From Kaistia dalseonensis (GTDB lineage: Bacteria; Pseudomonadota; Alphaproteobacteria; Rhizobiales; Kaistiaceae), in NCBI RefSeq assembly GCF_030814715.1, contig NZ_JAUSVO010000004.1:496001-560000 (forward strand): DNA of 64,000 nucleotides, read 5' to 3'. Shown here in pieces: positions 37,873 to 57,050 of this stretch. A program made the translations under genes and the position numbers. Numbering within the stretch: the first letter of the stretch is position 1; every line of letters begins with the position of its first letter. The notes under the pieces are model-generated. The model saw nothing but the letters and a program-made list of their open reading frames with translations. It was not told the origin of the DNA and did no database searches.

Positions 37873-37874
37873 GG

Positions 37875-39781: not shown

Positions 39782-39796
39782 CGGCAGGAATTCCCT

Positions 39797-39836: not shown

Positions 39837-39842
39837 AACGCA

Positions 39843-41453
39843 TCACTCTTTGGTGACGTGCGTGTAGAGATAGCCGGCCAGGCGATCGAGGGGCGTAAAG
39901 CCCTTGCTGTTCGGCGTGACGCCTTCGCCCTTCAGCTTGTCGCTCACCGCCGCGATCGTCACGGGATGAACCAGCGGAACCAGCGCGGCGTTGTCGATCA
40001 GGATATCCTCGGCCTTGGCATAGTCCTGCAGGCGCTTGGTCCAGTCCGACCCGGCGTCGCCGGCATTGACCAGGGCGTCATATTCCGGGAACTCATAATG
40101 ATGGCGTCCGCCGGACTTGAACAGGTCGTAGAAGTTCGAGGGATCGAGATAGTCATACTCGTAGGGCGCCAGGAACAGGCCGTTCGAACGGTCCTTCAAG
40201 GCGGCTGACCAATCCTTGGTCGGCATCGACTTGATGCCCATGTCGACACCGAGGATGTCCTTGAACTGCGCCTGCAGGTACTGGAGCATCGGCGCCGCGA
40301 TGGCCGCGTTGTAGCCGCCCTGCTCGCGATACCAGATCTCGATCGGCGGGAAGCCCTTGCCGCCGGGATAGCCGGCCTTGGCCATCTCGTCCTGAGCGAG
40401 CTTGACGTCGAACTTCGCCTTGGCGGCGATCTCTTCCTGGTAGCCCGGATAGCTCGGCGCCAGGATCGACTTGGCTGGAACGGCCGTATCCTTGAGCACC
40501 GTCGAGGTCAGCTCGTCGCGGTTGATAGCCGCCTGGAAGGCCTTGCGGACATGGACGTTGTCGAAAGGCGGCTTGTTCAGGTCGAAGGCGAGATAATAGA
40601 GCGCGAACACCGCATTCTTGCGGATGGCATCGGGGAACTGCTGCTGCACGACCGGAACCTGGCCGGCATTGAGCGTGGTCCAGTCCGCTTCGCCAGCCAT
40701 GAAGGCGGGGAAGCCGACTTCCGGCGGGCCGATCTGCGTATCGAGGACGAGCGTGTCGATCTGAGCCGGCCACGGACCCTTATAGGTCTCGTTCTTGACC
40801 AGCGTCATGGTGTTGTTGGACTTTTCCCAGCTCTTGACCTTGAAGGGACCGGAGGCGACCAGCGTGTCGACGCTCAGAGCATAATCATCGCCGATCTTGT
40901 CGACGACGTGCTTGGGCACCGGGTACCAGAGGCTGGCGACGCCGGGGAAATAGGATTTCGGTGCGTCGGTCGTGACTTCCAGCGTCGTGGCGTCCACGGC
41001 CTTGATGCCCAGCGTCGAGGGATCCGCCTTCTTGTCGGTGACGTCGGACCAGCCCTTGATGCCGCCGGCGAACGACCAATACCAGTTGAAGTCGTAGCCT
41101 TCCTTCGCGGCGCGCTGCAGCGCGAAGACATAGTCTTCGGCGGTGAGCGGCTCGCCGTCGCTCCAGACGAGACCGTCCTGAAGCTTGAAGGTCCATGTCA
41201 GGCCATCGGCCGACTGCGACCAGCTCTTGGCGCCCATCGGGTTCAGCTTGAATTCGCCGTCGAACTCCGTCAGCGGCAGCGAGGTGACCTCAGGGGCACC
41301 GGCGCGATCATACACGGTCTTCATGTAGTCCATGTAGGTGCCGCTCGTCGTGCCGCCGGGCCCGGTCACGGTGCTGTCGGCATGGGCGACCGCCGACACT
41401 GACAGGCTCGAAGCCAGAAGAGCCGCACCGAGCAATCTATGCAGCGCGTTCAT
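39843..41453 (-). CDS. peptide-type ABC transporter substrate-binding protein
   Basis: 536-aa periplasmic SBP_bac_5 (OppA/DppA) protein with a signal peptide ending near VAHA-DST. Family features: WSFKLQDG-like segment (LTWTFKLQDGLVWSDGEPLTAEDYVFAL) and LNKPPFDNVHVRKAFQAAINRDEL. The ATG at 41453 has a full GGAGG five bases upstream. First gene of a seven-gene minus-strand operon (binding protein, two ATPases, two permeases, PLP enzyme, GntR). Ligand unknown; a small peptide or opine-like amine is plausible. Confidence 0.9.
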   Translation of the reverse strand: MNALHRLLGAALLASSLSVSAVAHADSTVTGPGGTTSGTYMDYMKTVYDRAGAPEVTSLPLTEFDGEFKLNPMGAKSWSQSADGLTWTFKLQDGLVWSDGEPLTAEDYVFALQRAAKEGYDFNWYWSFAGGIKGWSDVTDKKADPSTLGIKAVDATTLEVTTDAPKSYFPGVASLWYPVPKHVVDKIGDDYALSVDTLVASGPFKVKSWEKSNNTMTLVKNETYKGPWPAQIDTLVLDTQIGPPEVGFPAFMAGEADWTTLNAGQVPVVQQQFPDAIRKNAVFALYYLAFDLNKPPFDNVHVRKAFQAAINRDELTSTVLKDTAVPAKSILAPSYPGYQEEIAAKAKFDVKLAQDEMAKAGYPGGKGFPPIEIWYREQGGYNAAIAAPMLQYLQAQFKDILGVDMGIKSMPTKDWSAALKDRSNGLFLAPYEYDYLDPSNFYDLFKSGGRHHYEFPEYDALVNAGDAGSDWTKRLQDYAKAEDILIDNAALVPLVHPVTIAAVSDKLKGEGVTPNSKGFTPLDRLAGYLYTHVTKE

Positions 41454-41807
41454 CAAGTCCTCCTTTTTGCCGGGCGCCGGCGTTTCCCCGTCCGGTAGCC
41501 CAATGACATATGACTGACAAAGTCTGCTGGCATTTACAAGCGCCCCGCTTCGGATCGCGTGCGTCTTTGTGCGCCGTATCGCTGCCCATAACGAAGGCGG
41601 GCGACATGTCAGCGAGGCGCCCCCTGCTCAGTGAGGCGAACCACCTGCGGCGATCCTGAGGCCGGCTCTCCGAGCCGACAACGGAAACGCAATGGATCGA
41701 GGCGCTCCAGCGCGACGACACAGCGCCGCATAGTGCCAGCAAGTCCTCGGTGGGCATTTTCTTCGCGGCCGCTTGCATGCTATCCCTTTGGGCAGGGGGA
41801 TCGAGGA
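41454..41807. other. divergent intergenic region, peptide importer / copper cassette
   Basis: About 350 bp holding two divergent promoters. No gene, repeat or convincing copper operator (CueR- or CsoR-type) could be recognised. Confidence 0.4.
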
Positions 41808-42200: not shown

Positions 42201-42278
42201 TGTCCCGCCGGCTCATTGAGCCGGCTCATCGGTTCATTTCCACCCCATGCGGGTGGTCCAGCCCTATTGGAGCAAGCG

Positions 42279-42869
42279 ATGTTTGTTCAAAGCGTCTCGT
42301 CGCGCGGCGGTTTGCTGCGCCTTTTCAACCGCAGAAGCAGCCTGGCCGAAAAGGTCGGCCTTGCCACTCTGTTCGCCGCCTTCCTGCTCGTATCCGCGCA
42401 GAGCGTCTTCGCGCACGAATTCAAGGTCGGGTCGATCGAGATCGGTCATCCCTGGACGCGCGCGACGCCGCCCGGTGCCGCAGTTGGCGGCGGCTATCTG
42501 ACCATCAGCAATGAGGGCAGCACCGACGACCGCCTGATCTCGGCCACGGCCGACGTGACCGGCCGCGTCGAGATCCATGAAATGGCCGTCAAGGACGGCA
42601 TCATGACGATGCGGGCGCTGCCCGATGGCCTCCTCATTCCGGCCGGCCAGACGGTGAAGCTCGATCCCGGCGGCTTCCACATCATGTTCCTCGACCTGAA
42701 GAAGCCCTTCGTGAAGGGACAGTCCTTCTCCGGGACGCTGACCTTCGAGAAGGCCGGTACCGTCAAGGTCAGCTACGCGATCGAGGCCATCGGCGCCACG
42801 GCTGGCGAAGAGCCCGGCGCGGGCGACCATGACCACGATGCCATGCCCGGCATGGACATGAGCAAATAG
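42279..42869 (+). CDS. PCuAC-type periplasmic copper chaperone
   Basis: 196-aa protein with a signal peptide ending at VFA-HEF and the PCuAC fold. Cu(I) ligands of the family pattern H-x-M...M...H-x-M are visible (EIHEMAV, IMTM, GGFHIMFLDL), and the C terminus adds a His/Met tail (HDHDAMPGMDM). Delivers Cu(I) to cytochrome oxidase or to SCO, whose gene follows 2 bases later. Start 42279 has GGAGCAAGC upstream. Confidence 0.88.
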   Translation: MFVQSVSSRGGLLRLFNRRSSLAEKVGLATLFAAFLLVSAQSVFAHEFKVGSIEIGHPWTRATPPGAAVGGGYLTISNEGSTDDRLISATADVTGRVEIHEMAVKDGIMTMRALPDGLLIPAGQTVKLDPGGFHIMFLDLKKPFVKGQSFSGTLTFEKAGTVKVSYAIEAIGATAGEEPGAGDHDHDAMPGMDMSK

Positions 42870-42871
42870 CC

Positions 42872-43486
42872 ATGTCCCGACGAAACAAGCTCTTCGGCGC
42901 CTTCGCGGGCGCTCTCCTGGTGCTGGGCGCAGGAACGGTCGTCGCCTATCAGGTGACGGGCGGCAGTTCGGGCACCCTCGCCAGGACCGACGAGATCGGA
43001 GGGCCGATCGATCTGATCGCGCAGGATGGCAAGGCGTTCTCGAACGCCGACCTGAAGGGCCAGCCCTTTGCGATCTTCTTCGGCTTCACGCGCTGTCCGA
43101 ATGTCTGTCCGACGACGCTCTCCGACCTGACGCTCGACCTCGATGATCTCGGCCCGCTCGCCGATCGCATGAAGGTCCTGTTCGTCTCCGTCGATCCTGA
43201 GCGCGACAACCCGGCCAGCATGAAGGACTACCTGTCGGCCTTCGATCCCAGGATCATCGGCCTGTCGGGGACGCCTGAGCAGATCGCCACGCTCGCGAAG
43301 GCCTATCGGGTCTTCTACGAGAAGGTGCCGACGCCGGGGGGCGACTACACGATGAACCATACGGCGAGCGTCTATCTGATGGACGCCGACGGCAAGTTCA
43401 CCGGCACGATCAACTTCCAGGAAGAACGATCGACGCAGCTTGCCAAGCTGAAGCGGCTGGCGAGCGGCACCGGCGCATCGACATAG
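42872..43486 (+). CDS. SCO1/SenC copper chaperone
   Basis: 204-aa thioredoxin-fold protein anchored by one N-terminal membrane helix (residues about 8-28). The Cu ligands are C75-x3-C79 (CPNVC) and a later His (YTMNHTASVY). Functions in CuA-site assembly of cytochrome c oxidase together with PCuAC. Confidence 0.9.
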   Translation: MSRRNKLFGAFAGALLVLGAGTVVAYQVTGGSSGTLARTDEIGGPIDLIAQDGKAFSNADLKGQPFAIFFGFTRCPNVCPTTLSDLTLDLDDLGPLADRMKVLFVSVDPERDNPASMKDYLSAFDPRIIGLSGTPEQIATLAKAYRVFYEKVPTPGGDYTMNHTASVYLMDADGKFTGTINFQEERSTQLAKLKRLASGTGAST

Positions 43487-43567
43487 GGCCGTCGATCGAT
43501 CGAACGCCCGTGGCGCGCCTGCGCCATGGGCCGCATTCGGCTTTTTCATGATTTCGGGGTTTCGACA

Positions 43568-44956
43568 ATGAGCACGAGCAAGGCATCGACCGCGCCTCCA
43601 GCGGTCAACAAGTTCTATTTCGCCGCCTGGCGCTGGCATTTCTACGCGGGGCTTTTCGTGGTTCCGTTCCTCGTCATGCTCGCGCTGACCGGCGCGTTCA
43701 TGATGATCTATTCCGACATCGGCAATGAACTCGGCATGGCGCCGGACGTCGTCGCCAGCGGTCCTGCGCTGCCTGTGTCCACGCAGGCAAAGGCCGCCAT
43801 CGCCGCCGTGCCCGATGGATTGCTGACGACCTATATCGCGCCGGAATCGAGCACACGTCCGGCCTATTTCGAGCTGAAGCAGGGCGATGCCACGATCGCC
43901 GTCGCAGTCGATCCCTATCGGGGCACGGTGCTGAATGCACAGGACGAGGCGACCACCTACCGCGCCCTGGCCGAGAGGATCCACGGCACCCTGCTGATCG
44001 GCGATACGGGCGACCGGCTGATCGAGGCGGCCGCCTCGCTGTCGATCCTGCTGATCGCGACCGGCCTCTATATGTGGTGGCCGCGCAAGGGCGGGTTGCT
44101 CGCCGCGCTCCTGCCTCGCCTGTCGACCAGGGGCCGCGGTCTCTGGAAGGAGCTTCACAAGACCACCGGCATCTGGATCTCGGCTGTCCTGCTCCTCTTC
44201 ATGCTCTCGGGCCTCGCCTGGACCGGGATATGGGGCGACAAATTCGTCAAGCCGTGGTCGTCCTTCCCCGCAGAGAAATGGGACAGTGTTCCGCTATCCG
44301 ACCTGACGCATGCGTCGCTGAACCGTTCGCCGCTCCACGAGGTGCCATGGGGTCTCGAACTGACGCCGCTGCCGGCCTCGGGCTCCTCTGCCGGGACGGC
44401 CGGCGTGCCGCAGCCCGTCGTGCTCGATACGGTCGCGCAATGGGCGGCGGCGAACGGGTTTGCAGGCCAGTACAAGCTCGCTCTGCCGATGGGCGAAACG
44501 GGGGTCTATTCAGTATCGATCGATGGCCGCAATGGCGACGGCTTCACGCCGTCCGACGATCGCTTCGTCCATATCGACCAGTATACCGGCAATATCCTCG
44601 CCGATATTCGCTACGCTGAATACAAACCCGTCGCCAAGCTGATGGCGTGGGGCATCGGCCTGCACAAGGGCATGGCCGGTACCTGGAACTTCGTTTTCAA
44701 CCTCGTCTACATCGCGCTCGTCCTGCTGCTCTGCGTCTCCGGCGTCGTGATGTGGTGGAAACGTCGTCCTGCCGGCGCTGGTCGCCTCGCTGCACCGCCC
44801 ATGCCGTCGGACCTGCCGCTCTGGAAGGGCGCCGTCCTGGTCGGGCTCGCCATTGCTCTCGCGTTCCCCATGGCCGGCATCGCGATCCTCTGCGTGCTGG
44901 CGATCGACGTGCTGGTGCTGACGCGCGTGCCTGTCCTGAAGCGCGCCTTTTCCTAG
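43568..44956 (+). CDS. PepSY-associated transmembrane protein
   Basis: 462-aa membrane protein with four main hydrophobic spans (about 22-45, 165-185, 215-235, 375-400) plus two near the C terminus and a PepSY domain in the large periplasmic loop. Conserved His-rich first helix (AAWRWHFYAGLFVVPFL) suggests haem or metal redox. Such proteins (PiuB-like) occur in iron- and copper-uptake loci; metal reduction at the membrane is the likely job. Start at 43568 (MSTSKAST). Confidence 0.82.
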   Translation: MSTSKASTAPPAVNKFYFAAWRWHFYAGLFVVPFLVMLALTGAFMMIYSDIGNELGMAPDVVASGPALPVSTQAKAAIAAVPDGLLTTYIAPESSTRPAYFELKQGDATIAVAVDPYRGTVLNAQDEATTYRALAERIHGTLLIGDTGDRLIEAAASLSILLIATGLYMWWPRKGGLLAALLPRLSTRGRGLWKELHKTTGIWISAVLLLFMLSGLAWTGIWGDKFVKPWSSFPAEKWDSVPLSDLTHASLNRSPLHEVPWGLELTPLPASGSSAGTAGVPQPVVLDTVAQWAAANGFAGQYKLALPMGETGVYSVSIDGRNGDGFTPSDDRFVHIDQYTGNILADIRYAEYKPVAKLMAWGIGLHKGMAGTWNFVFNLVYIALVLLLCVSGVVMWWKRRPAGAGRLAAPPMPSDLPLWKGAVLVGLAIALAFPMAGIAILCVLAIDVLVLTRVPVLKRAFS

Positions 44957-45106
44957 CGAGCAATCTGTTGATCCGGCGCGACGCGCGCATGGCGCCGCGC
45001 CGGTCCCGCAATGCGGATCGAGCCGACGCCAGATCCGCGACGAGACGCCGGCGTTCGACCGGCAGCATCCATCCAGACTCCACAACGATCCACGAAGGAG
45101 AAGTCC

Positions 45107-45628
45107 ATGTTGAGGTCCATTCTCTCGGCTGCCGCGCTGGTCGCGCTCGGCACCACGGCCGCCTCGGCCCATATCACGCTGGAAAACCAGCAGGCGCCGG
45201 TCGGCTCCACCTACAAGGCCGTCTTCCGCGTCGGCCATGGCTGCGAGGGCAAGCCGACCATCAAGGTCCGCGTGCAGATCCCGGAAGGCGTGATCGCCGT
45301 CAAGCCGCAGCCGAAGGCCGGCTGGACGCTCGAAAAGATCAAGGGGAAGTACGAGAAGTCCTATGACTATTACGGCACGCCGACCACCGAAGGCGTGAAG
45401 GAGATCGTCTGGAGCGGCGGTAGCCTGGCCGATGACGAATATGACGAGTTCGTGCTCCGCGCCTATCTGACGGCCGACCTGAAGCCCGATACGATGCTCT
45501 ATTTCCCGGTCGTGCAGGAATGCCCTGATGGCGCGAGCGAGCGCTGGATCGAGATCCCGGCCGCCGGCAAGGTGGCTGACGATTACGAGACGCCGGCTCC
45601 CGGCGTGAAGCTGCTTCACAAGCCCTGA
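45107..45628 (+). CDS. YcnI/DUF1775 copper-binding protein
   Basis: 173-aa exported protein, signal peptide ending at ASA-HIT so the mature N terminus is His, the copper-brace residue expected in YcnI/DUF1775 proteins. The family features GHGCEGKPT and the W in IVWSGG are present. AAGGAG precedes the ATG. Partners with the CopC-CopD fusion that follows, as in Bacillus ycnIJK. Confidence 0.87.
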   Translation: MLRSILSAAALVALGTTAASAHITLENQQAPVGSTYKAVFRVGHGCEGKPTIKVRVQIPEGVIAVKPQPKAGWTLEKIKGKYEKSYDYYGTPTTEGVKEIVWSGGSLADDEYDEFVLRAYLTADLKPDTMLYFPVVQECPDGASERWIEIPAAGKVADDYETPAPGVKLLHKP

Positions 45629-45652
45629 TATCAGGCGACGTCGACGAGACTG

Positions 45653-45677
45653 GCGCGCGCCTTTCATGGGCGCGCGC
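45653..45677 (+). other. GC hairpin between YcnI and CopCD genes
   Basis: GCGCGCGCC (45653-45661) pairs with GGCGCGCGC (45669-45677) around a 7-base loop. No U-tract follows, so it is more likely an mRNA processing or stability element than a terminator. It ends 21 bp before the CopCD start. Confidence 0.45.
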
Positions 45678-45698
45678 TCCCGAGCGCATCGAGGCATC

Positions 45699-47324
45699 AT
45701 GGCTGGCCAGAACTTCTCCTCCGCACGCCGTGCGGCGTCCCACGCCGCGGCGGTCTTCGTATTTCTGCTGGCGGTTTTCGTCGGCACGATCGGGAGTGCG
45801 CTCGCCCATGCCTCGCTCACCAATGCTGCTCCGGCCGACGGGTCTGTTCTCCCGGCGGCGCCGTCGGCCCTGATGCTGAGCTTCAGCGAGCCGGTCTCGC
45901 CGCTCGTCCTGAAGCTCGTCAATCCTGACCGAAGCGTCGTTGTCCTCGATCGCTATGCGCTGCGTGACACGACGCTCGATATCGAGGTGCCACCGGGCCT
46001 CGCCACGGGCACTCACGTTCTGAGCTGGCGCGTGATCTCGGAAGACGGGCATCCGGTGGGCGGTTCGGTCGTTTTCTCGATCGGTGCGCCGAGCCGCGGC
46101 GCGCCGCCTGTCGCCGATGCGGTCACCGATTGGTCGCTCCGCACCGCGATCTGGGCCGCCCGCACGGCGCTTTATGTCGGATTGTTCTTCGGCGTCGGCG
46201 GGGCGTTTTTCCTGAACTGGCTGGCGCGCCCTTCGCGCCATGGCGCGCGCTTCATCGCGGGCGCATTGCTGCTCGGCCTTATCGCCACGATCCCCGCGCT
46301 TGGCCTGCAGGGGCTCGACGCGCTCGGCCTGCCGCTCGGCTCGATCATGAGCGGCACCGTCTGGCGCACGGGCTATGGAACGAGCTATGGCGCCACGATC
46401 GTGATCGCGGCAGCGGCCCTGCTCGCCGGGCTGCTTTCCCTGATTTCGGGATTGTTCATATCGAGGGCGTTGTCGCTCATCGCCCTGGCCGGCATCGGCC
46501 TCGCGCTCGCTGCGAGCGGCCATGCGAGCGCCGCGCATCCGCAATGGTTGACGCGGCCCGCCGTGTTCGTCCATGCGATCGGCATTGGCTTCTGGGCCGG
46601 CGCGCTGGTGCCGCTTGGCCTCGCACTTGCCGCTCGCGCGCCGGGGGCCGAACCGGCGCTCAGGCGGTTTTCACGCGCCATCCCGCTTCTGCTCGCGCTT
46701 ATGGTCGCGGCCGGAATCCTGCTCGCGATCGTGCAGGTCGAGACGCCGTCCGCTTTGCTCGCGACCGCCTATGGTCGCGTGCTGCTGGTCAAGCTCGCCC
46801 TCGTCGCCGCGCTCTTCGCGCTCGCCGCCTATAATCGCTGGCGTCTGACAACACCGGCAGAACAGGGGAATGCCGACGCGACCAGGCGTCTTGCCCGCGT
46901 GATCGCGATCGAGACCCTGCTCGTGCTGGCCGTGCTCGGAACGGCAGCCGTCTGGCGCTTCACGCCGCCGCCGCGTGCACTCGCGCTGGCTGCTGCAGCG
47001 CCGGCGCATATCCACATCCATACCGACAAGGCCATGGCGGATCTTTCCATCACGCCCGGCCATGTCGGTCCCGTGACCGCGTCGATCGTGATCATGACGG
47101 GCGATTTCGGACCGCTCGATGCCAAGGAGGTCACGCTGGTGCTCTCCAACCCCGAGGCCGGCATCGAGCCGATCCGGCGGCCGGCGATCAAGCCCGGCGA
47201 CGGCACCTGGCGCGTCGATGGGCTGACCATACCCGTCGGCGGCCGGTGGACCGCCCGCATCGACATCCTCGTCTCCGACTTTGAACTCGTGAAGCTCGAG
47301 GAGACCATCGACATTCGCCCCTGA
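45699..47324 (+). CDS. CopC-CopD fusion (YcnJ-like) copper importer
   Basis: 541-aa protein. Signal peptide to ALA-HAS gives an N-terminal His of a CopC domain (residues about 35-130, with the second ligand region SEDGHPVGG). A CopD-type membrane domain with about eight helices follows, then a YtkA-like C-terminal domain (HIHTDKAMADLSITPGHVG). This CopC-CopD-YtkA order matches YcnJ-type copper uptake proteins. Start 45699 has GAGG; the earlier ATG at 45666 lies inside a hairpin-rich leader. Confidence 0.88.
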   Translation: MAGQNFSSARRAASHAAAVFVFLLAVFVGTIGSALAHASLTNAAPADGSVLPAAPSALMLSFSEPVSPLVLKLVNPDRSVVVLDRYALRDTTLDIEVPPGLATGTHVLSWRVISEDGHPVGGSVVFSIGAPSRGAPPVADAVTDWSLRTAIWAARTALYVGLFFGVGGAFFLNWLARPSRHGARFIAGALLLGLIATIPALGLQGLDALGLPLGSIMSGTVWRTGYGTSYGATIVIAAAALLAGLLSLISGLFISRALSLIALAGIGLALAASGHASAAHPQWLTRPAVFVHAIGIGFWAGALVPLGLALAARAPGAEPALRRFSRAIPLLLALMVAAGILLAIVQVETPSALLATAYGRVLLVKLALVAALFALAAYNRWRLTTPAEQGNADATRRLARVIAIETLLVLAVLGTAAVWRFTPPPRALALAAAAPAHIHIHTDKAMADLSITPGHVGPVTASIVIMTGDFGPLDAKEVTLVLSNPEAGIEPIRRPAIKPGDGTWRVDGLTIPVGGRWTARIDILVSDFELVKLEETIDIRP

Positions 47325-47385
47325 CGCGGCCGACCGGCGCAGGCATGGGATGAGAAGGTCCATCAGAATTCGGCTTGCGAAATGT

Positions 47386-47399
47386 TATGTTATAACATA
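47386..47399. promoter_or_regulatory. probable Zur box
   Basis: TATGTTATAACATA is a perfect 14-bp palindrome inside an AT-rich island, 123 bp before the COG0523 start, and closely resembles alphaproteobacterial Zur operators (TGTTATAACA core). It predicts derepression of the downstream GTPase under zinc starvation. Confidence 0.75.
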
Positions 47400-47521
47400 T
47401 CAATGCCCGGGACGATCATTGAACGGAGGGAGTGTCGCCGTCGACGCGCCGCCTTGGAAAGGCTCGTGAGTTCGGCCGCACCCGTTCAGCCAAGGTCGTC
47501 CCGTTCCAGGAAGGAGCCCTG

Positions 47522-48496
47522 ATGTCCATTCCCGTCACTGTGCTGACCGGCTTTCTCGGTGCCGGCAAGACGACGCTGCTCAACCGCATCCTCACGGAAG
47601 AGCACGGCAAGCGCTATGCGGTGATCGTCAACGAGTTTGGCGAGGTCGGCATCGACAATGACCTTGTCGTGAATTCCGACGAAGAAATCTTCGAGATGAA
47701 CAATGGCTGCATCTGCTGCACCGTTCGCGGCGATCTGATCCGGATCATCGACGGGCTCATGAAGCAGAAGGGTCGTTTCGACGGCATACTGATCGAGACG
47801 ACCGGCCTCGCCGATCCGGCGCCCGTCGCGCAGACCTTCTTCGTCGATGATGATGTAAGGGCCAATACGCGGCTCGATGCGATCGTGACTGTCGTTGACG
47901 CCAAGCATCTCGAGCTCGAGCTGGACGGAACGCCGGAAGCGCAGGAGCAGATCGCCTTTGCCGACATCATCCTGCTCAACAAGACGGATCTGGTCGCCCC
48001 CGAACAATTGGCTTCCATCAGGCGGCGTATCGTCCTGATCAACCCGACCGCTCAGATCCGAGAGACGGAGCGCTGCGGCGTCGCGCTCAGCGATGTGCTC
48101 GGCCGCGACGCATTCAGTCTGGAACGGGTGCTCGAGGTTGAGCCCGATTTCCTGACGCATGAGCACGACCACGAGCATGACGATCAGGTCTCCAGCCTGT
48201 CGCTTACATCCGACGAGCCGCTTGATCATGCCGTCTTTCTCCCGTGGATTCAGGAGATCGTGCAGGCGCTCGGCACCGATATCTTGCGGATGAAGGGCAT
48301 CATCGCCTTTCGCAACGATCCGGACCGCTTCGTCGTCCAGGGTGTTCACATGCTGATCGAGGGCGGCCATCAGCGGCCCTGGAAAGCGGACGAACCCCGC
48401 CGCTCCCGCCTCGTCTTCATTGGGCGCAACCTGCCGAAGGATGTGATCCGGGACGGCTTCGAGCGCGCTCTGGCGCGCCAGCCGAAAATCCATTGA
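47522..48496 (+). CDS. COG0523 (CobW/ZigA-type) metallochaperone GTPase
   Basis: 324-aa G3E GTPase: Walker A GFLGAGKT (residues 10-17), the C63-x-C65-C66 metal motif, NKTD base-recognition motif, a His-rich linker (HEHDHEHDD) and a CobW C-terminal domain. With a Zur box upstream, a zinc-starvation metallochaperone (ZigA/ZagA-like) fits better than a CobW role in B12 synthesis, although a B12 riboswitch lies just downstream. Start 47522 follows AGGAG. Confidence 0.88.
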
Positions 48497-48780: not shown

Positions 48781-48864
48781 CGCCAGATCGAGCGCCGACG
48801 GAGAGCTCGTAACTGTGCAGGCGGCAGCGGAAGGCGTTGACACGCCTGCGGCCGCCGCTACGTT

Positions 48865-49074
48865 GGTCAGTGGTCAAGGTTCTCTCGGCCCCGCAAGGCT
48901 GAGAGCTAAGAGGGAAGTCGGTGCGCTCGATCGGTCCAGGACCGAAGCAAAGCCGATGCTGCCCCCGCAACTGTAAGCGGTGAGCCGCGCTGCCGAACAT
49001 GTCACTGGCAAGAATTTGCTGGGAAGACAGGCAGTGACGGCATCGACCCGTGAGCCAGGAGACCTGCCCTGACC
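48865..49074 (+). ncRNA. cobalamin (adenosylcobalamin-type) riboswitch
   Basis: Closing stem GGTCAG (48865-48870) with CTGACC (49069-49074). Inside are the conserved blocks in order: GCTGAGAG...AGAGGGAA-GTCGGTGC, CTGCCCCCGCAACTGTAAGCGG, and the B12 box GAGCCAGGAGACCTGCC (49052-49068). It lies about 125 bases before the CbiX-like gene and should repress it when cobalamin is plentiful. Confidence 0.96.
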
Positions 49075-49170
49075 GGTTGAACGTCCTTGGGCGGGGTGTC
49101 CCGAAGGATCGCTGGCTGGTCTTGACGGCACATTCGCGCCGCCGCTCCCGTTCATGCGCTCTTTCCGACG

Positions 49171-49192
49171 CCCGGCTCTTGCCGCCGGGGAG
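49171..49192 (+). promoter_or_regulatory. RBS-sequestering hairpin of the B12 riboswitch
   Basis: CCCGGC (49171-49176) can pair with GCCGGG (49184-49189), which overlaps the GGGGAG Shine-Dalgarno (49187-49192) before the TTG start at 49199. No U-tract is present, so control is probably at translation rather than by termination. Confidence 0.55.
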
Positions 49193-49198
49193 TGTGGA

Positions 49199-49981
49199 TT
49201 GACTATTTCTCTTGCTGAAGACCAGCCTGTGACGCCGCAGCGCGTTGTCGTTCTGCTGGCCAAATCGGCTTTTGCCGCGCAGCCGATCTCTGAAATGAGC
49301 CGGCTGACGAAATTGCTGCAGGGCAGGCCCGATATTGAGAGGGTGCTGTTCGCCTTCTCCGAGCAGGGCACGCCATCGCTGCGTGATGTGTTGGAAGGCC
49401 TCAGGCGTCCCGAGGTTGGCGAGGTGGTGATCCTGCCGCTTCTCGTGCCGATGGAGCTGTCCTTCCAGCTCTGGCTGGCGCGAACCATCCGGCGCTGGCA
49501 GCGGGACGGCGCGGATGACTGGCCTGTCATTCACTTAGGCGCGCCGCCCGCCCTGTCCGGCGCGATGGCGGACCTTCTGGCCGACATGCTGCGATCGGCG
49601 CTCGCGACGCCACCTCTTTCGCCAACAGCCCGCGCGCCGAAGGATGCCTCCGTCGTGCCGGCGCAGAAGCGGCGCGTCCTCGTCTGCCAGGGCGGTGCCT
49701 GCAACGATGCCGGCGCGGCCACGATCTGGGGTCATCTGCGCAACGAGCAGGAGCGGCTGAAGCTTCGAACGGCCGCCGGCGGCACGATGACCGCCAAGTC
49801 GACCTGCCTCGGTCCCTGCAACCTCGCGCCCGTGCTGCAGGTCTTTCCCGAGGGCACCTATTATGGCGGCGTAACAGAGGACGGCATCGATCGCATCATC
49901 GCCGACCATCTGCTGCGCGATGTCGTCGTCGACGCGCTCGCCTATGCCCCGACCGGCACCAAGCAGGCCCTTCGCGCCTGA
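49199..49981 (+). CDS. CbiX-like domain fused to thioredoxin-like [2Fe-2S] ferredoxin
   Basis: 260-aa protein. Residues about 15-125 have the CbiX/chelatase repeat fold (DIERVLFAFSEQGTPSLRDVLEGL, EVVILPLLVPMELSFQLW) but lack the N-terminal GHGS-type His motif that binds metal in CbiX. Residues about 157-245 form a [2Fe-2S] domain with CQGGAC and CLGPC. The TTG start at 49199 has GGGGAG upstream; the ATG at 49154 has none. First gene after the B12 riboswitch. Possibly a cobalt carrier or redox partner for corrin synthesis; not an obvious active cobaltochelatase. Confidence 0.7.
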   Translation: MTISLAEDQPVTPQRVVVLLAKSAFAAQPISEMSRLTKLLQGRPDIERVLFAFSEQGTPSLRDVLEGLRRPEVGEVVILPLLVPMELSFQLWLARTIRRWQRDGADDWPVIHLGAPPALSGAMADLLADMLRSALATPPLSPTARAPKDASVVPAQKRRVLVCQGGACNDAGAATIWGHLRNEQERLKLRTAAGGTMTAKSTCLGPCNLAPVLQVFPEGTYYGGVTEDGIDRIIADHLLRDVVVDALAYAPTGTKQALRA

Positions 49982-50010
49982 AACATCCCTTCTTCCAATC
50001 GAGAAGCATC

Positions 50011-51507
50011 ATGTTCATATCTCTTCGTCGGGCCTTGGCCCCGGCCGCTCTTGCCTTGACCCTTTCCACCTTTGCCTTGACCGCTCACGCGACCGAGCCG
50101 CTGCGGGTCGGCGCGTCCTTCATCACTAGCGGCCTTGACCCGGCCAAGGGCTCGAATGGCTGGGCGCTGGTCAGCCACGGCATTGGCGAGAACCTCTTCA
50201 CGGTCGACAAGAACGGTGTCCTGACACCCGAACTCGCAGCCGGCGCCGAACGGGTGGACGAGTTGACCTGGATCGTCAGACTGAAGCCGGGCCGCCAGTT
50301 CTCCGATGGCACGCCGGTGACGGCCGAGGTCGTCGGCACGGCGCTGGCCCACACCTTTGCCAGCAACAAGACCGCGCTTGCGACTGGCGGCATGCTTAAT
50401 TTCGCGCCCGTCGACGAACTGACACTGAAGGTCACGACCGAGAAGCCGGTGCCGGTGATCGCGGCCTTGTTCGCCGAATGGCCGCTCATCGTCTATCATC
50501 TGAAGGCAGGCGGTACGGCCGTGTTCAGCGGTCCCTATGCGGTCAAGGCCTTCCAGCCTGATGCCGAGCTGGACCTCGTGCCGAACCCGACTTTTGCCGG
50601 CGCCGACACACGCTCGCCGGTGACGTTGCGCAAGCTCGCCGATGGGCAGTCGCTGGCGCTCGCCTTCGAGGCCGGCGAACTGGATCTCGCCTTTGGGCTT
50701 CCCTCCGAAGTCGTGGGCCGGCTCAAGGCCAATCCCGACCTGACGGTGAAGTCGTTCCCGGTCGGCTACCAGTACATGGCCTTCCTCAACACCAAACACC
50801 CGGCTCTGGCCGATCCCAAGCTGCGCCGCGCCATCGACCTCGCGATCGACCGCAGCCAGCTCGTGATTGCGATCAATGGCGGCAGCCCGGCAACCGGCGC
50901 CTATGCGCCCTATTTCCCGTTCGCCGGCAAGACGGCGCGGCCGACCGACGTCAAGGCCGCCGCCACGCTCCTCGACGAGGCCGGCTGGATCGCCGGCGCT
51001 GACGGTGTCAGGCGCAAGGACGGGCAGGTCCTCACCCTCTCTGTCCTCGCCTATCCGCAGCGGCCCGATCTCGTCACCATGCTGCCGGTGGTCAAGGCCC
51101 AGCTGGCGAACCTCGGCATCAGCGTTGAAACGAAGATCGTTGAGAATGTCAGCGAGGTCGCGGGTTCTGGCGAGTTCGACCTGTTCCTCTGGGCGCAGCA
51201 CACCGCGCCGAGTGGCGATCCGGCCTTCTTCCTGAATTCGATGCTGCGCTCCGGAGCGAGCCTCAATTATTCCGGCTATGCCAGCCCGGCCTTCGACGCG
51301 ATCCTCGACCAGTTCTCGACCGAGAGCGACCCGGCGAAGCGAGACGAGATTGCTGCTTCCGCGCAGGCGAAGCTGTTCGAGGACGTGCCGGTGACCTTCC
51401 TCGTCTCACCGGTCTGGTATGTCGGTCTCTCCAAGCGGCTTTCGGGCTATGAGCCTTGGGGCTCCGACTATCATGTCCTACGTGGCGAGATGGGCGAGGC
51501 GAACTGA
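50011..51507 (+). CDS. Nik/Opp-family ABC substrate-binding protein (cobalt candidate)
   Basis: 498-aa SBP_bac_5 protein with a signal peptide ending near TAHA-TEP. Family segments: TWIVRLKPGRQFSDGTPVTAEVV and HPALADPKLRRAIDLAIDRSQL. Located 29 bases after the CbiX-like gene in a cobalamin-riboswitch operon, so its ligand is probably cobalt (free or chelated), a corrin precursor or a metallophore. NikA-like role is inferred from family and regulation. Confidence 0.8.
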   Translation: MFISLRRALAPAALALTLSTFALTAHATEPLRVGASFITSGLDPAKGSNGWALVSHGIGENLFTVDKNGVLTPELAAGAERVDELTWIVRLKPGRQFSDGTPVTAEVVGTALAHTFASNKTALATGGMLNFAPVDELTLKVTTEKPVPVIAALFAEWPLIVYHLKAGGTAVFSGPYAVKAFQPDAELDLVPNPTFAGADTRSPVTLRKLADGQSLALAFEAGELDLAFGLPSEVVGRLKANPDLTVKSFPVGYQYMAFLNTKHPALADPKLRRAIDLAIDRSQLVIAINGGSPATGAYAPYFPFAGKTARPTDVKAAATLLDEAGWIAGADGVRRKDGQVLTLSVLAYPQRPDLVTMLPVVKAQLANLGISVETKIVENVSEVAGSGEFDLFLWAQHTAPSGDPAFFLNSMLRSGASLNYSGYASPAFDAILDQFSTESDPAKRDEIAASAQAKLFEDVPVTFLVSPVWYVGLSKRLSGYEPWGSDYHVLRGEMGEAN

Positions 51508-51519
51508 ACGGCCGCCATC

Positions 51520-52434
51520 TTGCCATTTCCGCTCCGGATCGCGCTGCGCACGATCGTCAGCCTTCTGGCGATCTCGCTGGTGGCGTTCATCGTTATTGCG
51601 GCGATGCCGTCCGACCCGGTGGCGATCGCGATCCGGACCTGGAACCTGCCGGCGACCGACCAGACGGTCGCCGCGCTCCGTGCCCAATGGGGGCTCGACC
51701 TGCCGCTGGCACAACGCTACCTCGCCTGGCTGACGCGGTTCCTCGGCGGGAATTGGGGAACGTCCTTCCGGACGGGTGAGCCCGTTCTCAGCGAGTTTGC
51801 CCGCCGGTTGCCTCTCTCCTTGCTGATCGGGCTATCGGGCCTGGCGCTGGCGCTCGTCGCGGCCGTGCCGCTCGGTTTCGCCGCCGCGCTCAATCCCAGG
51901 GGACTTGCCGACAGGGCGACACGTGTTTTGGCGGTTTTCGTCCAGGCGGTCCCGTCGATCTGGCTCGGGCTGATCCTGATCTGGGTGCTCGGCGTCCATT
52001 TTCGTCTTATCCGCCCCTTCGGCCACGACGCCGGCAGCCTTGTCCTGCCTATCCTGTTGATCGGGCTCCACTCAACGGCGGTTCTGGCGCGCGTCTATCG
52101 CCGCGACCTGATCCACGTGACGACGCAGCCCTTCTTCCGGACGGCGCTCGCAAAGGGCAACAGCCGATCGGCCGCGCTCTGGCGCCACGGCCATGGCCAT
52201 GCCGTCTACGCACTGCTCTCTGCCTTTCGCGCCGAGGCCGGATGGGCGATCGGCAGCACAGCGGCAATCGAGGTTCTGTTCGGCCTGCCGGGCATCAGCC
52301 AATTCCTGGTCGAGAGCATCGCCGCCCGCGACTATGCCGTGCTGCAGGCCTATGTGATGGTCGTCGCGCTCTGGCTCATCCTCATGAACGCGATTGTCGA
52401 AGGCGCGCTGCACTGGCTGGACCCGCGCACATGA
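51520..52434 (+). CDS. Nik/Opp-family ABC permease (NikB-like)
   Basis: 304-aa inner-membrane permease with six hydrophobic segments. Start TTG at 51520 gives a normal first helix (MPFPLRIALRTIVSLLAISL); no better start is near. The EAA loop is altered (FFRTALAKGNSRSAALWRHGHGHAVY), with an unusual HGHGH run. Twelve bases after the binding-protein gene. Confidence 0.82.
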   Translation: MPFPLRIALRTIVSLLAISLVAFIVIAAMPSDPVAIAIRTWNLPATDQTVAALRAQWGLDLPLAQRYLAWLTRFLGGNWGTSFRTGEPVLSEFARRLPLSLLIGLSGLALALVAAVPLGFAAALNPRGLADRATRVLAVFVQAVPSIWLGLILIWVLGVHFRLIRPFGHDAGSLVLPILLIGLHSTAVLARVYRRDLIHVTTQPFFRTALAKGNSRSAALWRHGHGHAVYALLSAFRAEAGWAIGSTAAIEVLFGLPGISQFLVESIAARDYAVLQAYVMVVALWLILMNAIVEGALHWLDPRT

Positions 52435-53195
52435 CGAGGTGGCGGGTGCTCCTGGCCGTTGGCATTCTCGCCCTGATGGCTCTCGGCGCGCTTTGGCAGC
52501 CGCATGATCCCGATGCGATCGATCTCGCCAGCCGTTTCTCGCCGCTCACGATCGGCCACCCGCTCGGCACCGACCATCTCGGGCGCGACCTGCTCGCGCG
52601 CCTTATGGTCGGCGGCTGGCGCACCGCAATCGTCGTCCTGACCGTGGCACTGGTCGGCATCGTCGGAGGCTGCCTGTTCGGCACCACTGCGGCGCTTGTC
52701 GGCGGCTGGGGCGAGACGGCTATCCTGCGAACGGCCGAGACCTCGATCGTCATTCCCACCCTCATCATCGCATTGACCGCCGCAGCGATCTTCGGGCTGA
52801 AGCCGGCGATCGCCGGGCTGGCGCTCGGGCTGGCGGGCATCGGGCCCTATACGCTCTTCGCCCACGCGCTGGCGCGGCGGATCGTGGCGCAGCCCTATGT
52901 CCATGCCGCACGGGCGCTCGGCGTTTCCGACGGGCCGCTCATCCTGCGCCATGTCGTGCCCAATATGTTGCCGGCGGTCTTTACCCATGTCGGCAGCAAT
53001 GCCGGCCTCGCGGTGACGGCCTATGCGTCGCTCGCTTTCCTCGGGCTCGGCGCTGACCCTTCCAGGCCCGATTGGGGCGGCATGCTGTTCGAATATCGGA
53101 TGTTCATCTTCGACCATCCGATGCTGCTCGCCTGGCCCGGCCTCGCCATCGCGGCCACGGCGGCGCTGTTCAACTGGGCGTTCGATCGCGGATAG
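52431..53195 (+). CDS. Nik/Opp-family ABC permease (NikC-like)
   Basis: 254-aa permease, ATG overlapping the previous stop by 4 bases. Contains the OppC/NikC HPLGTDHLGRDLLARL motif and the EAA loop HAARALGVSDGPLILRHVVPN. Shorter than usual NikC (about 277 aa). No ATPase gene follows; the next gene is a nuclease subunit, so ATP hydrolysis must be supplied by a protein encoded elsewhere. Confidence 0.84.
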   Translation: MTRWRVLLAVGILALMALGALWQPHDPDAIDLASRFSPLTIGHPLGTDHLGRDLLARLMVGGWRTAIVVLTVALVGIVGGCLFGTTAALVGGWGETAILRTAETSIVIPTLIIALTAAAIFGLKPAIAGLALGLAGIGPYTLFAHALARRIVAQPYVHAARALGVSDGPLILRHVVPNMLPAVFTHVGSNAGLAVTAYASLAFLGLGADPSRPDWGGMLFEYRMFIFDHPMLLAWPGLAIAATAALFNWAFDRG

Positions 53196-53307: not shown

Positions 53308-54438
53308 ATGAGCTTCCGCTTTCTTCACACCGCTGATTGGCAGATCGGCAAGCCGTTCGCCAATGTTCCAGGCGATGCCGGCGCTGCGCTGCGCGCCCAA
53401 AGGATCGCGACCGTCGCGGAGATAGCCAGGCTCGCGGCGACGCGGCAGCTCGATGCCGTGCTGGTGGCCGGCGACATCTTCGACAGCAACGAAGTGCATG
53501 ACCGCACGATCCTGCGCACGCTCGATGCGCTCAAGGCCTTTACCGGCCGATGGATCTTCCTGCCCGGCAATCACGACGCGGCGCTCGCCCATAGCGTCTG
53601 GACGCGCATGCGGCAGATGGGGATCGAGGAGAACATCATCATCGCCGATCAGCCTGTGCCGATCACGGGCTGGGATGGTCGCGCGACGATCCTGCCGGCG
53701 CCGCTGCGTCGGCGCCGCGAGAGCGAGGACCAGACGGAATGGTTCGACAGCGCCGCGACGGTCGAGGGCGCGCTTCGCGTCGGACTGGCGCATGGCAGCG
53801 TTGCAAACCGCCTGCCGGGCGCGGCGGAGGCCTCGAACGAGATTCCGGAGAACCGCGCCGAAACGGCACGGCTCGGCTATCTCGCGCTCGGCGACTGGCA
53901 TGGCGCCCTGAAAATCGCGCCGAGAACCTACTATTCCGGCACGCCGGAGACCGATCGCCACCGGGCTAACCAGTCCGGCTTCGTGCAGATCGTCGAACTG
54001 GACGGGGTCGGTGCGCCGGAGCGGGTTGAGCTGGTCGGAACCAGCCATTTCAGCTGGCATGATCTCGACGCCGAACTGATCGAGGGAACCGCCGACGCCG
54101 TATCGGCACTGCTCGGACAGGCGGTGAGCGATCCGGCGCGCGCGGTCGTGGCGCTGGCGCTGACCGGCAGCTTGAGCCTCGCCGAGCGCTATCGCCTCAA
54201 TGCCGAGCTGGAGACATGGCGCAATCGCCTGCACCATCTTGATCTCGACGGCAAGGGTCTGGTGGAAGACCCGACCGAGGATGATCTCGACTCGCTCGAT
54301 ACATCCGGCTTCGTGCGGCTCGCGCTCGAGCGGCTGAAGGCACGGGCGAACGATCCGTCCGATCCGAAGGCGCCGGCCGCGCGCGTGGCGCTCCGCATGG
54401 TCTATCTCGACCATCGGCAGAGCGGAGGCGTCAAATGA
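53308..54438 (+). CDS. SbcD/Mre11-like metallophosphoesterase
   Basis: 376-aa DNA repair exonuclease-type protein. Phosphoesterase motifs: LHTADWQIGK (D10), GDIFD, LPGNHD, GLAHG and LGDWHG. In SbcD/Mre11 motif I is D-x-H; here it is D-W-Q, so the usual His ligand is Gln12. The stop overlaps the SbcC-like gene by 4 bases. Probably a double-strand-end nuclease working with that ATPase. Confidence 0.82.
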   Translation: MSFRFLHTADWQIGKPFANVPGDAGAALRAQRIATVAEIARLAATRQLDAVLVAGDIFDSNEVHDRTILRTLDALKAFTGRWIFLPGNHDAALAHSVWTRMRQMGIEENIIIADQPVPITGWDGRATILPAPLRRRRESEDQTEWFDSAATVEGALRVGLAHGSVANRLPGAAEASNEIPENRAETARLGYLALGDWHGALKIAPRTYYSGTPETDRHRANQSGFVQIVELDGVGAPERVELVGTSHFSWHDLDAELIEGTADAVSALLGQAVSDPARAVVALALTGSLSLAERYRLNAELETWRNRLHHLDLDGKGLVEDPTEDDLDSLDTSGFVRLALERLKARANDPSDPKAPAARVALRMVYLDHRQSGGVK

Positions 54439-57050
54439 AGCTCCGCCGTATCGAAGTCAGGGATTTCCGCAAGCTCGGCCATGTCGTGATCGCCGATCTC
54501 GCCGACGGGCTCAATGTCGTGGTCGGCGACAACGAGGCCGGCAAGTCGACGCTCCTCGCCGCCCTGCGCGCCGTCTTGTTCGAGCGTCACCGTGTCGGCG
54601 GCAATGTGGCCGCCTCCATGCAGCCTTACGGCCAGACGGTGCGTCCGCAGGTCTGGCTCGAATTCGAACGCGACGGCGTATCCTGGAAGCTGCACAAGGC
54701 CTTCTGCCAGAAGCAGGAGGCTGAACTCGAAGGCGGCGGCGGGCGCTGGACGGGCGATGCCGTCGAGGAGCGCCTGGCCGAGATGTTCGGCTTCACGCCG
54801 CCGGGGCGCGGGGAATCGAAGCCCGACGAACATCATGGCGTCTTTGGCCTGCTTTGGGTCGAACAGGGCACCTCACATCAGGCGCTCGGCGTCGGCGCGG
54901 GGCGCGATCATCTCGCAGCCGCGCTGGAGCGCGAGGTTGGGCAGGTCACGGGTGGCGAGCGAGGGCGCCTGCTGCTGGCCGCCGCCGAAGCGCGCAAGGC
55001 GGCGTTCTGGGACAAGCGCAACAATCCGCGCGATGCGTTCAAGGCGCTGGCGGTCGATCTCGAGGCGGCGCGCGAGCAGCGCACGACAATTCAGCAGCAA
55101 CTCGCCGCTTATGAAAGCAAGGTCGCGCGCCTTGCCACGCTGCAGGAGATATTGAACCGCCACAGGCGTGACGACAGCCTGCGAGTGGCCGAGGCTCGCC
55201 TTGTTGCGGCGCAGAAAGCGGCCGCCGTGGTCGCGCAGTATCAGGGCGCGCTTCGAACGGCGGAGATCGCGCTGGAGGGCGCCCGGTTGCGCCACGAGGC
55301 GGCCGTCGGCCGGCTCGCGGCGCGCGAAAAGGCCCGGACCGAACTCGAGCGCACCAAGCGGGATTTTGACGCAGCCGGCGCCAATCTGGCCGAGGCGCAG
55401 GGACAGCTCGCCCGGCTGGAACTGGCGGCCGGGATTGCCGATAGCCGGTCGAGGGCGGCCGAGTCCGCCGTACGCGAAGCCGACAGCGTGGTCCAGCGGA
55501 TCGAGCAGGCAGCCGTGCGGCGACAGGCGCGCGAGACGGCCGCGCGGCTCGCTCAGCAGCTTGCCGCCGCAGAGGCCGCCGATCAGGCGCGGCTTCGTGC
55601 CGAGGCGATCATTGTCGCGGCAGCATTGACCCCGCAGGACCTCAAGCAACTCGAAGGCCTCGAGCGGGCGGCCGATCAGGCGCGGCTGCGGCTCGAAGCG
55701 GCGAGCGCCCGCGTGACCTTGCTGCCCGAAGGCGAGCATGTGGTGCAGATCGAGGGCAGCGATGATCTGGTCGAGCCGGAGCTCGTTCTTTCGCGCGACA
55801 CGACCCTCGTGCTGCAGGGCTATGGCCGTATCCACATTCAGCCCGGCGGCGGTATTGGCGAACTCGTCCGCGCCTCCGATGAAGCCCATCAGGCGCTTGT
55901 GCGCGCCTTGCAGCGTCTCGGACAGACCGATCTGACCGTGGCACGGCTCGCCTTGCAGCGCATCGCGGATGCACGCTCGGAAGAGAGGATCCACACCCAA
56001 GCGCTGAGCGGTCTTGCGCCCAAGGGGCTCGATGCGCTGCGACAGGAACTGGCGCGAAGCCTGTTGCTGGCGGGCACCGGCGACACCGAAGACGCCGCCG
56101 GATTGGGCGATGTGGATGCGGCACGGAGCAAGGCGGCAGAGGCGAGGCGACTGTTCGAAACGCTCGCTGCCGAAGCCGCCCAGGCCAATGTCGCCCTTGA
56201 GGCCGTAAGGCGCGACATCGCGATCCTGGCCGAACGCGCCCGTGTCGCTGCACACGCGCACCAGCGGCTGCGCGATGAACTCGGTGCCGCGCGCGAGGCG
56301 GCTCCAGACCAAGCGCTCGAAGGCGACGCGCTGACATGTCGGTTGGCGCGGACGGAGGCGGAGGCCAATTGGGCCACCGCCCGCGATGCCGTGGCGGCAG
56401 CCGATCCGGAGGCGACCACGCTTGCGGTCGAGCGCGCCATCCAGGCCGAGAAGGCCATACGCGAGGATATCGACCGGACCGAACGCGAGCGGCGGGACCT
56501 CGATGTCGAGTTGCGGGCGCTCGGCAAGGATGGGCTCGGCGAGGAGCTCGAAACGCTGAATGGTCGGATCGAGTTGCTGGAAGCGCGGCTGAAGACGACG
56601 ACGCTCGAAGCCGAGGCGGCGCGGCTGCTCGCCGATACGCTCGCCGAGGCGCAGCGCGAGACGAAGGAGAAATGGCTGGCGCCGGTCCGGGAGCGTTCGG
56701 CGCCCTATCTGCGCCTGATCCAGAACGAGAGCAGCATCGTGCTGAGCGAGGGGAGCTTCGAAATCGAGAGATTGGTCCGGAACGGCGTTTCCGAGCCCTT
56801 TGCGGGGCTCAGCGTGGGCGCGCGCGAGCAGATCGCGGTCATCACGCGGCTGGCGCTGGCCGACATCCTGCGCGAGGGTGGCCAGGAATCCTGCATCGTG
56901 CTCGATGACGCCCTGGTGAACACCGATGAAGGCAGGCTGGAACGCATGCATCTCGTGCTGCACAAGGCGGCGCAGCGCCAGCAGATCCTGATCCTGACCT
57001 GCCGCGAGCGCGATTTCCTCCAGCTGGGCGCACCCATCCGCCGAATTTAG
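54435..57050 (+). CDS. SbcC/YhaN-like AAA ATPase with coiled coil
   Basis: 871-aa SMC-like ATPase. Walker A GDNEAGKST at residues 31-39; two long coiled-coil arms; a central beta-rich segment (LLPEGEHVVQIEGSDDLVEPELVL..., about residues 425-480); C-terminal signature LSVGAREQ and Walker B CIVLDDALVNTD. The CxxC zinc hook of classical SbcC/Rad50 is absent, and the length is below SbcC (about 1050 aa), so it is closer to YhaN. Co-translated with the SbcD-like gene. Confidence 0.83.
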   Translation: MKLRRIEVRDFRKLGHVVIADLADGLNVVVGDNEAGKSTLLAALRAVLFERHRVGGNVAASMQPYGQTVRPQVWLEFERDGVSWKLHKAFCQKQEAELEGGGGRWTGDAVEERLAEMFGFTPPGRGESKPDEHHGVFGLLWVEQGTSHQALGVGAGRDHLAAALEREVGQVTGGERGRLLLAAAEARKAAFWDKRNNPRDAFKALAVDLEAAREQRTTIQQQLAAYESKVARLATLQEILNRHRRDDSLRVAEARLVAAQKAAAVVAQYQGALRTAEIALEGARLRHEAAVGRLAAREKARTELERTKRDFDAAGANLAEAQGQLARLELAAGIADSRSRAAESAVREADSVVQRIEQAAVRRQARETAARLAQQLAAAEAADQARLRAEAIIVAAALTPQDLKQLEGLERAADQARLRLEAASARVTLLPEGEHVVQIEGSDDLVEPELVLSRDTTLVLQGYGRIHIQPGGGIGELVRASDEAHQALVRALQRLGQTDLTVARLALQRIADARSEERIHTQALSGLAPKGLDALRQELARSLLLAGTGDTEDAAGLGDVDAARSKAAEARRLFETLAAEAAQANVALEAVRRDIAILAERARVAAHAHQRLRDELGAAREAAPDQALEGDALTCRLARTEAEANWATARDAVAAADPEATTLAVERAIQAEKAIREDIDRTERERRDLDVELRALGKDGLGEELETLNGRIELLEARLKTTTLEAEAARLLADTLAEAQRETKEKWLAPVRERSAPYLRLIQNESSIVLSEGSFEIERLVRNGVSEPFAGLSVGAREQIAVITRLALADILREGGQESCIVLDDALVNTDEGRLERMHLVLHKAAQRQQILILTCRERDFLQLGAPIRRI

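Follow-up and report, generated by a model that had tools for sequence, protein, structure and literature searches.

A B12 riboswitch operon of Kaistia dalseonensis encodes a predicted Nik/Opp-type metal importer without an ATPase gene

Layout of the operon

In a 64,000-nucleotide stretch of the Kaistia dalseonensis genome (contig NZ_JAUSVO010000004.1, positions 496,001 to 560,000 of the forward strand; here called the window), a cobalamin (B12) riboswitch precedes genes for a two-domain protein that we call CbiX-Fd, a periplasmic binding protein, and two permeases, PermB and PermC. The features, all on the plus strand, are as follows.

48860 to 49085, plus strand: cobalamin (B12) riboswitch aptamer RF00174, above the gathering threshold in cmscan and covering the full model
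49086 to 49198, plus strand: leader from aptamer to first gene, with a Shine-Dalgarno-like GGGGAG before the TTG at 49199
49199 to 49981, plus strand: CbiX-Fd, 260 amino acids (aa), a CbiX-fold/thioredoxin-like [2Fe-2S] ferredoxin fusion (PF01257)
50011 to 51507, plus strand: periplasmic binding protein of the SBP_bac_5 type, NikA/Opp5A-like (PF00496, NF045468)
51520 to 52434, plus strand: PermB, a NikB/Opp2B-like permease with a TTG start (PF00528, NF045470)
52431 to 53195, plus strand: PermC, a NikC/Opp2C-like permease (PF00528, NF045474)

The aptamer matches RF00174 at 122.5 bits (E 3e-30; gathering threshold 31.5) over model positions 1 to 189 of 189. With four plus-strand genes 3′ of it, the initial annotation was right to place a B12 riboswitch ahead of a four-gene set, and on sequence grounds the four are predicted to form one operon under its control. 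The genome (5.18-Mb assembly, 11 contigs) holds two RF00174 copies, one of them at this operon. No expression platform could be made out in the leader, which has a fold z-score of −0.59. For CbiX-Fd we prefer the TTG at 49199, although an ATG at 49154 is open too, because the leaders before the ATG starts of relatives L033 and L087 align with it by eye; those starts are likewise preceded by a GGGGAG-like Shine-Dalgarno sequence.

An importer without its own ATPase gene

The binding protein matches PF00496 (SBP_bac_5) with an E value of 1.5e-61, the only Pfam family found at E 0.01, and both permeases match PF00528 (BPD_transp_1; E 5.6e-28 for PermB and 5.4e-21 for PermC). Scores against the NCBIfam models are lower than their cut-offs: 237 bits for NF045468 (Opp5A/NikA; cut-off 600), 244 bits for NF045470 (Opp2B; cut-off 350), and 166 bits for NF045474 (Opp2C; cut-off 300). 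The gene 3′ of PermC, from about 53310, encodes an SbcD/YhaO-like metallophosphatase, and within the window no ATPase gene lies 3′ of the permeases. A Nik/Opp importer lacking its ATPase, as first annotated, is thus borne out by the Pfam matches and by the same absence in 42 relatives, described below.

Both permeases retain the EAA loop that couples to an ATPase (RTALAKG...RH in PermB; AARALG...RHVVPN in PermC). Across 41 sequences the conservation of its key positions is A 1.00, G 1.00, and H 0.98 in PermB and G 0.98, H 1.00, and P 1.00 in PermC. Among solved structures, the binding protein is closest to proteins that bind nickel or oligopeptides. Its His56 is kept in 41 of 43 sequences and His397 in 43 of 43 (outgroups included). 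We could assign no equivalents of the NikA ligands in it: H416 of E. coli NikA meets Ala416, and His397 meets NikA Trp398.

The arrangement recurs in Alphaproteobacteria

A scan for CbiX-Fd found it at 58 loci of named genomes. The order CbiX-Fd, binding protein, B-permease, C-permease recurs in 24 of them, and RF00174 lies just upstream in all 24, so by comparison of loci the four-gene arrangement should be more than chance. The genes 3′ of the set vary among genera and are shared by close relatives. The remaining 34 loci, whose neighbors were viewed in part, are without this importer set.

We then counted loci by the importer itself, asking for a binding protein above 300 bits together with B- and C-permeases. 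This gave 46 loci. Removing L117 and L118, which duplicate L033 and L087, left 44; L116, where the contig ends after permB, and L139, whose binding protein is accompanied by permeases and ATPases of the ordinary Opp kind, were left out. The 44 are 42 alphaproteobacterial loci (L110 and L111 share one genome) and two outgroups, Fusobacterium and Aerococcus. An Opp-type ATPase on the same strand within 1.5 kb of the C-permease was found at none of the 42, with the sequence past the C-permease being short in L135 (215 bases) and L132 (1,084 bases), and it sits next to the set in both outgroups (for Aerococcus, also by annotation). By covariance model, RF00174 lies upstream at 37 of the 42, L115 having a partial match at a contig end. 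Both properties whose conservation had been proposed as a check, the riboswitch and the missing ATPase, therefore recur, and the ATPase-less arrangement is, to judge from these sequences, widespread in an alphaproteobacterial clade. Binding-protein identity across relatives is 40 to 75%, and the frames are open. One relative (L133 3350 to 8126, genome G720) has an additional binding protein 3′ of the C-permease of its ATPase-less set, with 42% identity to that of the window.

A search with the binding protein matched 40 of 397 genomes in an order-level sample at E 1e-30 or better, 12 of them at 1e-158 or better; a class-level sample gave 9 of 385 at 1e-80, our own genome included, and a phylum-level sample gave 1 of 398 at 1e-70, our own. 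Eight plasmid records carry the protein at 59.9% identity or more (Neorhizobium, four; Shinella, two; Rhizobium and Paracoccus, one each). Within the genus Kaistia the set is accessory, because 4 of 11 sampled genomes carry it, this one included.

We built a PermB tree of 48 rows, in which 31 of the 42 loci without an ATPase are represented beside 17 complete systems. A branch with support of 100/99 separates all 31 ATPase-less rows, together with the two outgroups, from E. coli NikB, nine Opp permeases of the same Kaistia genome, and five complete sets found behind CbiX-Fd. A single change of ATPase label within the side that holds the ATPase-less rows is compatible with the tree and hardly supported by it (51/2). 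The gap is, as far as the tree allows it to be dated, old in Alphaproteobacteria. The five complete sets (binding protein, B, C, D, and F) stand directly behind CbiX-Fd in L056, L059, L064, L065, and L069; that they are the same importer with its ATPase still in place is ruled out, their permeases falling outside the clade. L074, which is not in the tree, has a complete set of the same kind further downstream of CbiX-Fd.

CbiX-Fd has a CbiX fold without the chelatase histidines

Two domains make up CbiX-Fd, at about residues 14 to 140 and 155 to 256. It scores 38.1 bits against PF01257 (cut-off 24.8; E 1.8e-9) and 17.2 bits against Pfam CbiX, PF01903, below the cut-off of 22. The AlphaFold2 model has a mean predicted local distance difference test score of 80.8, and the matches in the VIA-align list of structure comparisons fit a CbiX fold followed by a thioredoxin-like ferredoxin. 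Cys163, Cys168, Cys203, and Cys207 of the ferredoxin domain are kept in 59 of 59 aligned sequences. The C-terminal domain thus has the fold and the four cysteines of thioredoxin-like [2Fe-2S] ferredoxins such as Aquifex aeolicus ferredoxin and Azotobacter FeSI, from which CbiX-Fd differs by its fusion to a degenerate CbiX domain.

The N-terminal domain shares its fold with the CbiX/SirB/CfbA chelatases. We placed two CbiX histidines, which we take to be the metal-binding residues of the chelatases, on CbiX-Fd by alignment to structure 3lyh and counted the residues over the 59-sequence alignment. Histidine is absent at both sites in 59 of 59 sequences: the first site holds K in 37 and R in 22, and the second S in 43, G in 12, A in 3, and T in 1. 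A histidine does occur two residues past the second site in 14 of the 59, the window protein not among them. Because both histidines are replaced throughout, the domain is probably not a chelatase, and we set aside CbiX-Fd as an active enzyme of this kind. The initial label of CbiX-like holds for the fold; a chelatase role does not follow from it, and cobN, which belongs to the aerobic route, is present in the genome. Unlike the chelatases, CbiX-Fd is also fused to a thioredoxin-like ferredoxin. A ferredoxin on a presumably inactive chelatase fold would then be a frequent partner of this importer in Rhizobiales.

Elsewhere, CbiX-Fd genes lie near TonB receptors (L047, L080, and L085; Pfam), a COG0523 gene (L041; Pfam), or a luciferase-like monooxygenase (L077). 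BtuFCD-like genes are seen by eye near CbiX-Fd in L076, L080, L082, and L086.

Search for an ATPase in the Kaistia genome

The oligo_HPY domain has 30 matches in 16 places of the genome, the pair in the window and 15 other regions. Fourteen of the 15 hold an OppD/OppF-like pair next to permeases, and one holds a PhnK/PhnL-like pair. A search with the nikE model gave 153 matches, with 150 of 248 candidates scored, and added one further pair, at C4:258 kb, complete with permeases. From the permease side, 17 B-permeases exceed 165 bits against the Opp2B model, the next match being at 61 bits. An ATPase pair adjoins 16 of these 17; the exception is PermB of the riboswitch operon. In the contexts inspected, those of the Opp-like pairs, with the nikE candidates scored in part, no orphan Opp-type ATPase pair was found.

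Individual candidates were rejected. The pair at 37.9 to 39.8 kb of the window, named at first as a possible donor, has its own permeases at 36.0 to 37.9 kb, which rules it out as a dedicated partner; it belongs to a complete Opp operon, is one of 16 such pairs found, and nothing singles it out. The whole of this operon (36041 to 41456, minus strand) encodes, with roles assigned by eye, a binding protein, two ATPases, and two permeases of the Opp/Dpp type. The nikE-like pair at C4:258 kb is part of a complete Nik/Opp-like operon and is no orphan. By eye, the pair at C4:218 kb is PhnK/PhnL-like with a PhnM-like neighbor, and we exclude it as the partner. Nor did an OppD/F-like match turn up in the 19 kb around the second B12 riboswitch, so a dedicated pair under the same riboswitch class, which would have spoken against the first reading of the locus, did not appear there.

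Substrate and B12 context

The substrate is most likely cobalt for B12, a reading that draws on the riboswitch, on cobN, and on neighboring COG0523 and DUF1636 genes. Matches to the cobN model occur in 19 of 19 genomes with the set, above the cut-off in 18 and only below it in G103. COG0523 or DUF1636 genes adjoin the set in some relatives. The initial annotation had called the operon a cobalt or corrinoid acquisition system; cobalt stands as the probable substrate, and the operon is not the sole cobalt candidate, as cbtB-cbtA lies behind the second riboswitch. That region (L001 5319 to 19001, C1:752319 onwards) combines cbtB-cbtA, a separate predicted cobalt importer, with genes of the aerobic B12 pathway: cobU-like, cobW, cobN, and cobO- and cobQ-like genes (cobU, cobO, and cobQ by eye). 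Because CbtAB is present behind the other riboswitch, the set described here may import cobalt in another form. Beside CbtAB, it would then give B12-producing soil bacteria and symbionts a further candidate cobalt importer linked to a riboswitch. One relative (L114 7675 to 17084) combines RF00174 and an ATPase-less set with a nearby CobW-like match and, by eye, urease-like genes.

Comparison with known systems

The comparisons that follow draw on excerpts and tables of the cited papers. NikABCDE has in common with the Kaistia set an SBP_bac_5 protein, two BPD_transp_1 permeases, and, in two of the systems in PMC2667541, a B12 riboswitch. That paper separates those two NikABCDE systems from the nickel-specific ones, and one of its tables counts two Clostridia NikABCDE systems as cobalt systems. 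NikD and NikE are part of the known system, whereas the Kaistia set has no ATPase gene; it also falls below the NCBIfam cut-offs for Nik/Opp proteins, and its operon begins with a CbiX-Fd gene.

CbtJKL of Sinorhizobium meliloti is a riboswitch-controlled Co(II) importer (PMC7689651, PMC12239276). It shares with the Kaistia set an upstream B12 riboswitch and an origin in Rhizobiales; cobalt is its described substrate and a predicted one for Kaistia. CbtJ is described as BtuF-like (PMC7689651), and CbtL is listed as ATP binding in a table of PMC11804256. The Kaistia binding protein matches PF00496 only and so belongs to another family, which rules out identity of the two systems. CbtAB (PF09490/PF09489), which this genome has too, is likewise predicted to import cobalt and follows a B12 riboswitch, but it consists of unrelated Pfam families.

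Importer operons without their own ATPase gene are known for the multitask ATPases MsmX and MsmK (PMC7658222). There, the importers are of the CUT1 family and the ATPase is an orphan, whereas the Kaistia importer is of the Opp/Nik family and no orphan was found. As of 2020, according to PMC7658222, reports of ATPase sharing were confined to CUT1 sugar importers; a later report describes FhuC serving heme uptake in Staphylococcus aureus (PMC10147376). CbiMN is a precedent for ATP-independent cobalt entry (PMC7689651). The excerpts of the open-access literature that we covered hold no description of an ATPase-less NikABC set with CbiX-Fd. An Opp/Nik metal importer that is kept ATPase-less would mean either that ATPase sharing occurs in a second large family too or that uptake can proceed without ATP.

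A proposed borrowed ATPase and its alternatives

We lean, at somewhat better than even confidence, toward a B12-repressible importer of a metal, most likely cobalt and perhaps chelated, that serves B12-making Alphaproteobacteria with an ATPase borrowed from the Opp family. Low B12 would relieve the riboswitch and turn the operon on; the binding protein would capture cobalt, and PermB and PermC would work with the ATPases of another Opp-family importer, in the way that multitask ATPases serve CUT1 importers. CbiX-Fd would act as a redox protein on a noncatalytic CbiX scaffold that handles the metal in the cytoplasm, by reduction, release, or hand-off to CobW and cobaltochelatase. A borrowed ATPase is favored because the ATPase-docking loops are retained in both permeases. 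A donor would be at hand, since each of the 15 non-Kaistia genomes with the set that we examined has at least four oligo_HPY matches. For the poorest of them, G103 (95% complete), our search turned up one Yej-like fused ATPase plus one Opp pair as possible sources; each has permeases alongside.

Several observations weigh against this explanation. No donor ATPase was identified in the genomes with the set and none is common to all of them, so that the pairing of permeases and ATPase is an inference; all 16 Opp-type pairs found in Kaistia sit with permeases, leaving no obvious MsmX-like orphan. The coupling loop of PermB lacks its closing LP, and the EAA region is conserved no better than the remaining protein (rank 74 of 284 windows along PermB and 154 of 226 along PermC). 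When both strands are allowed and the range is widened to 5 kb, 12 of the 42 loci do have some ABC ATPase match: L055, L088, and L122 are close to complete Opp operons, and the matches near L042, L054, L058, L060, L067, L108, L110, L119, and L134 are of uncertain kind. L132, L134, L135, and L136 have no riboswitch match among the candidates scored, which were a part of the total (L136 is cut upstream by a contig end), and that of L122 is seen by motif only. The presence of cobN lends cobalt weak support, and CbtBA already stands behind the other riboswitch of the genome.

The importer might need no ATP at all: the binding protein and two permeases could be driven by the membrane potential or by trapping of the metal in the cytoplasm through CbiX-Fd or DUF1636. 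The absence of a following Opp-type ATPase from all 42 loci, the lack of an orphan pair in Kaistia, and the two permease-bound sources found in G103 are all in its favor, but the coupling loops are kept, the complete outgroup systems suggest an ATP-driven ancestor, and Opp-family ATPases occur in all 15 other genomes examined. On this balance we think it unlikely. A more specific form, in which an Opp/Nik-type importer family moves cobalt without nucleotide hydrolysis of its own, pulled by an iron-sulfur partner that traps or reduces the metal, strikes us as doubtful, and it is with equal reserve that we would name cytoplasmic CbiX-Fd, or DUF1636 in other lineages, as that partner. There may instead be a dedicated ATPase that went unrecognized because it is encoded elsewhere, belongs to another ABC subfamily, or lies in an assembly gap. 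The many nikE matches and their partial scoring leave some room for one, context having been seen for the Opp-like pairs, C3:450 kb, and the second riboswitch only, and an ABC frame of 599 aa at C1:766939 (88 bits with the nikE model) lies just past the stretch examined at that riboswitch. Against this, no Opp-type pair that we found lacks permeases except the PhnK/PhnL-like one, and the 19 kb at the second riboswitch hold no OppD/F-like match; we give this explanation little credence.

The substrate could also be nickel, a corrinoid, or another metal complex, with the riboswitch merely marking B12 physiology. Nickel is a candidate because the set in L114 adjoins the urease-like genes; the solved relatives of the binding protein point the same way, and CbtAB is already present. 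Set against these are the riboswitch at 37 of 42 loci, cobN matches in all 19 genomes, the COG0523 neighbors in some relatives, and the occurrence of CbiX-Fd elsewhere near TonB receptors or COG0523 genes, and we regard a substrate other than cobalt as rather improbable. Patchy occurrence, in 4 of 11 Kaistia genomes, might suggest an operon in decay, its function gone along with its ATPase. This is very hard to reconcile with open frames, the binding-protein identity seen across relatives, and a riboswitch and motif residues kept at most of the 42 loci, and we hardly credit it beside an importer with a borrowed ATPase.

Neighboring genes

Upstream of the operon, a plus-strand run at 42216 to 48496 of the window ends in a COG0523 GTPase (PF02492/PF07683). 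By eye it resembles a copper-handling cluster, with PCuAC-, SCO-, PepSY-, YcnI-, and CopC/CopD-like genes. At the other end, adjoining the operon, the plus strand from about 53310 to 57050 encodes the SbcD/YhaO-like phosphoesterase and then a long protein that is SbcC/YhaN-like by eye.

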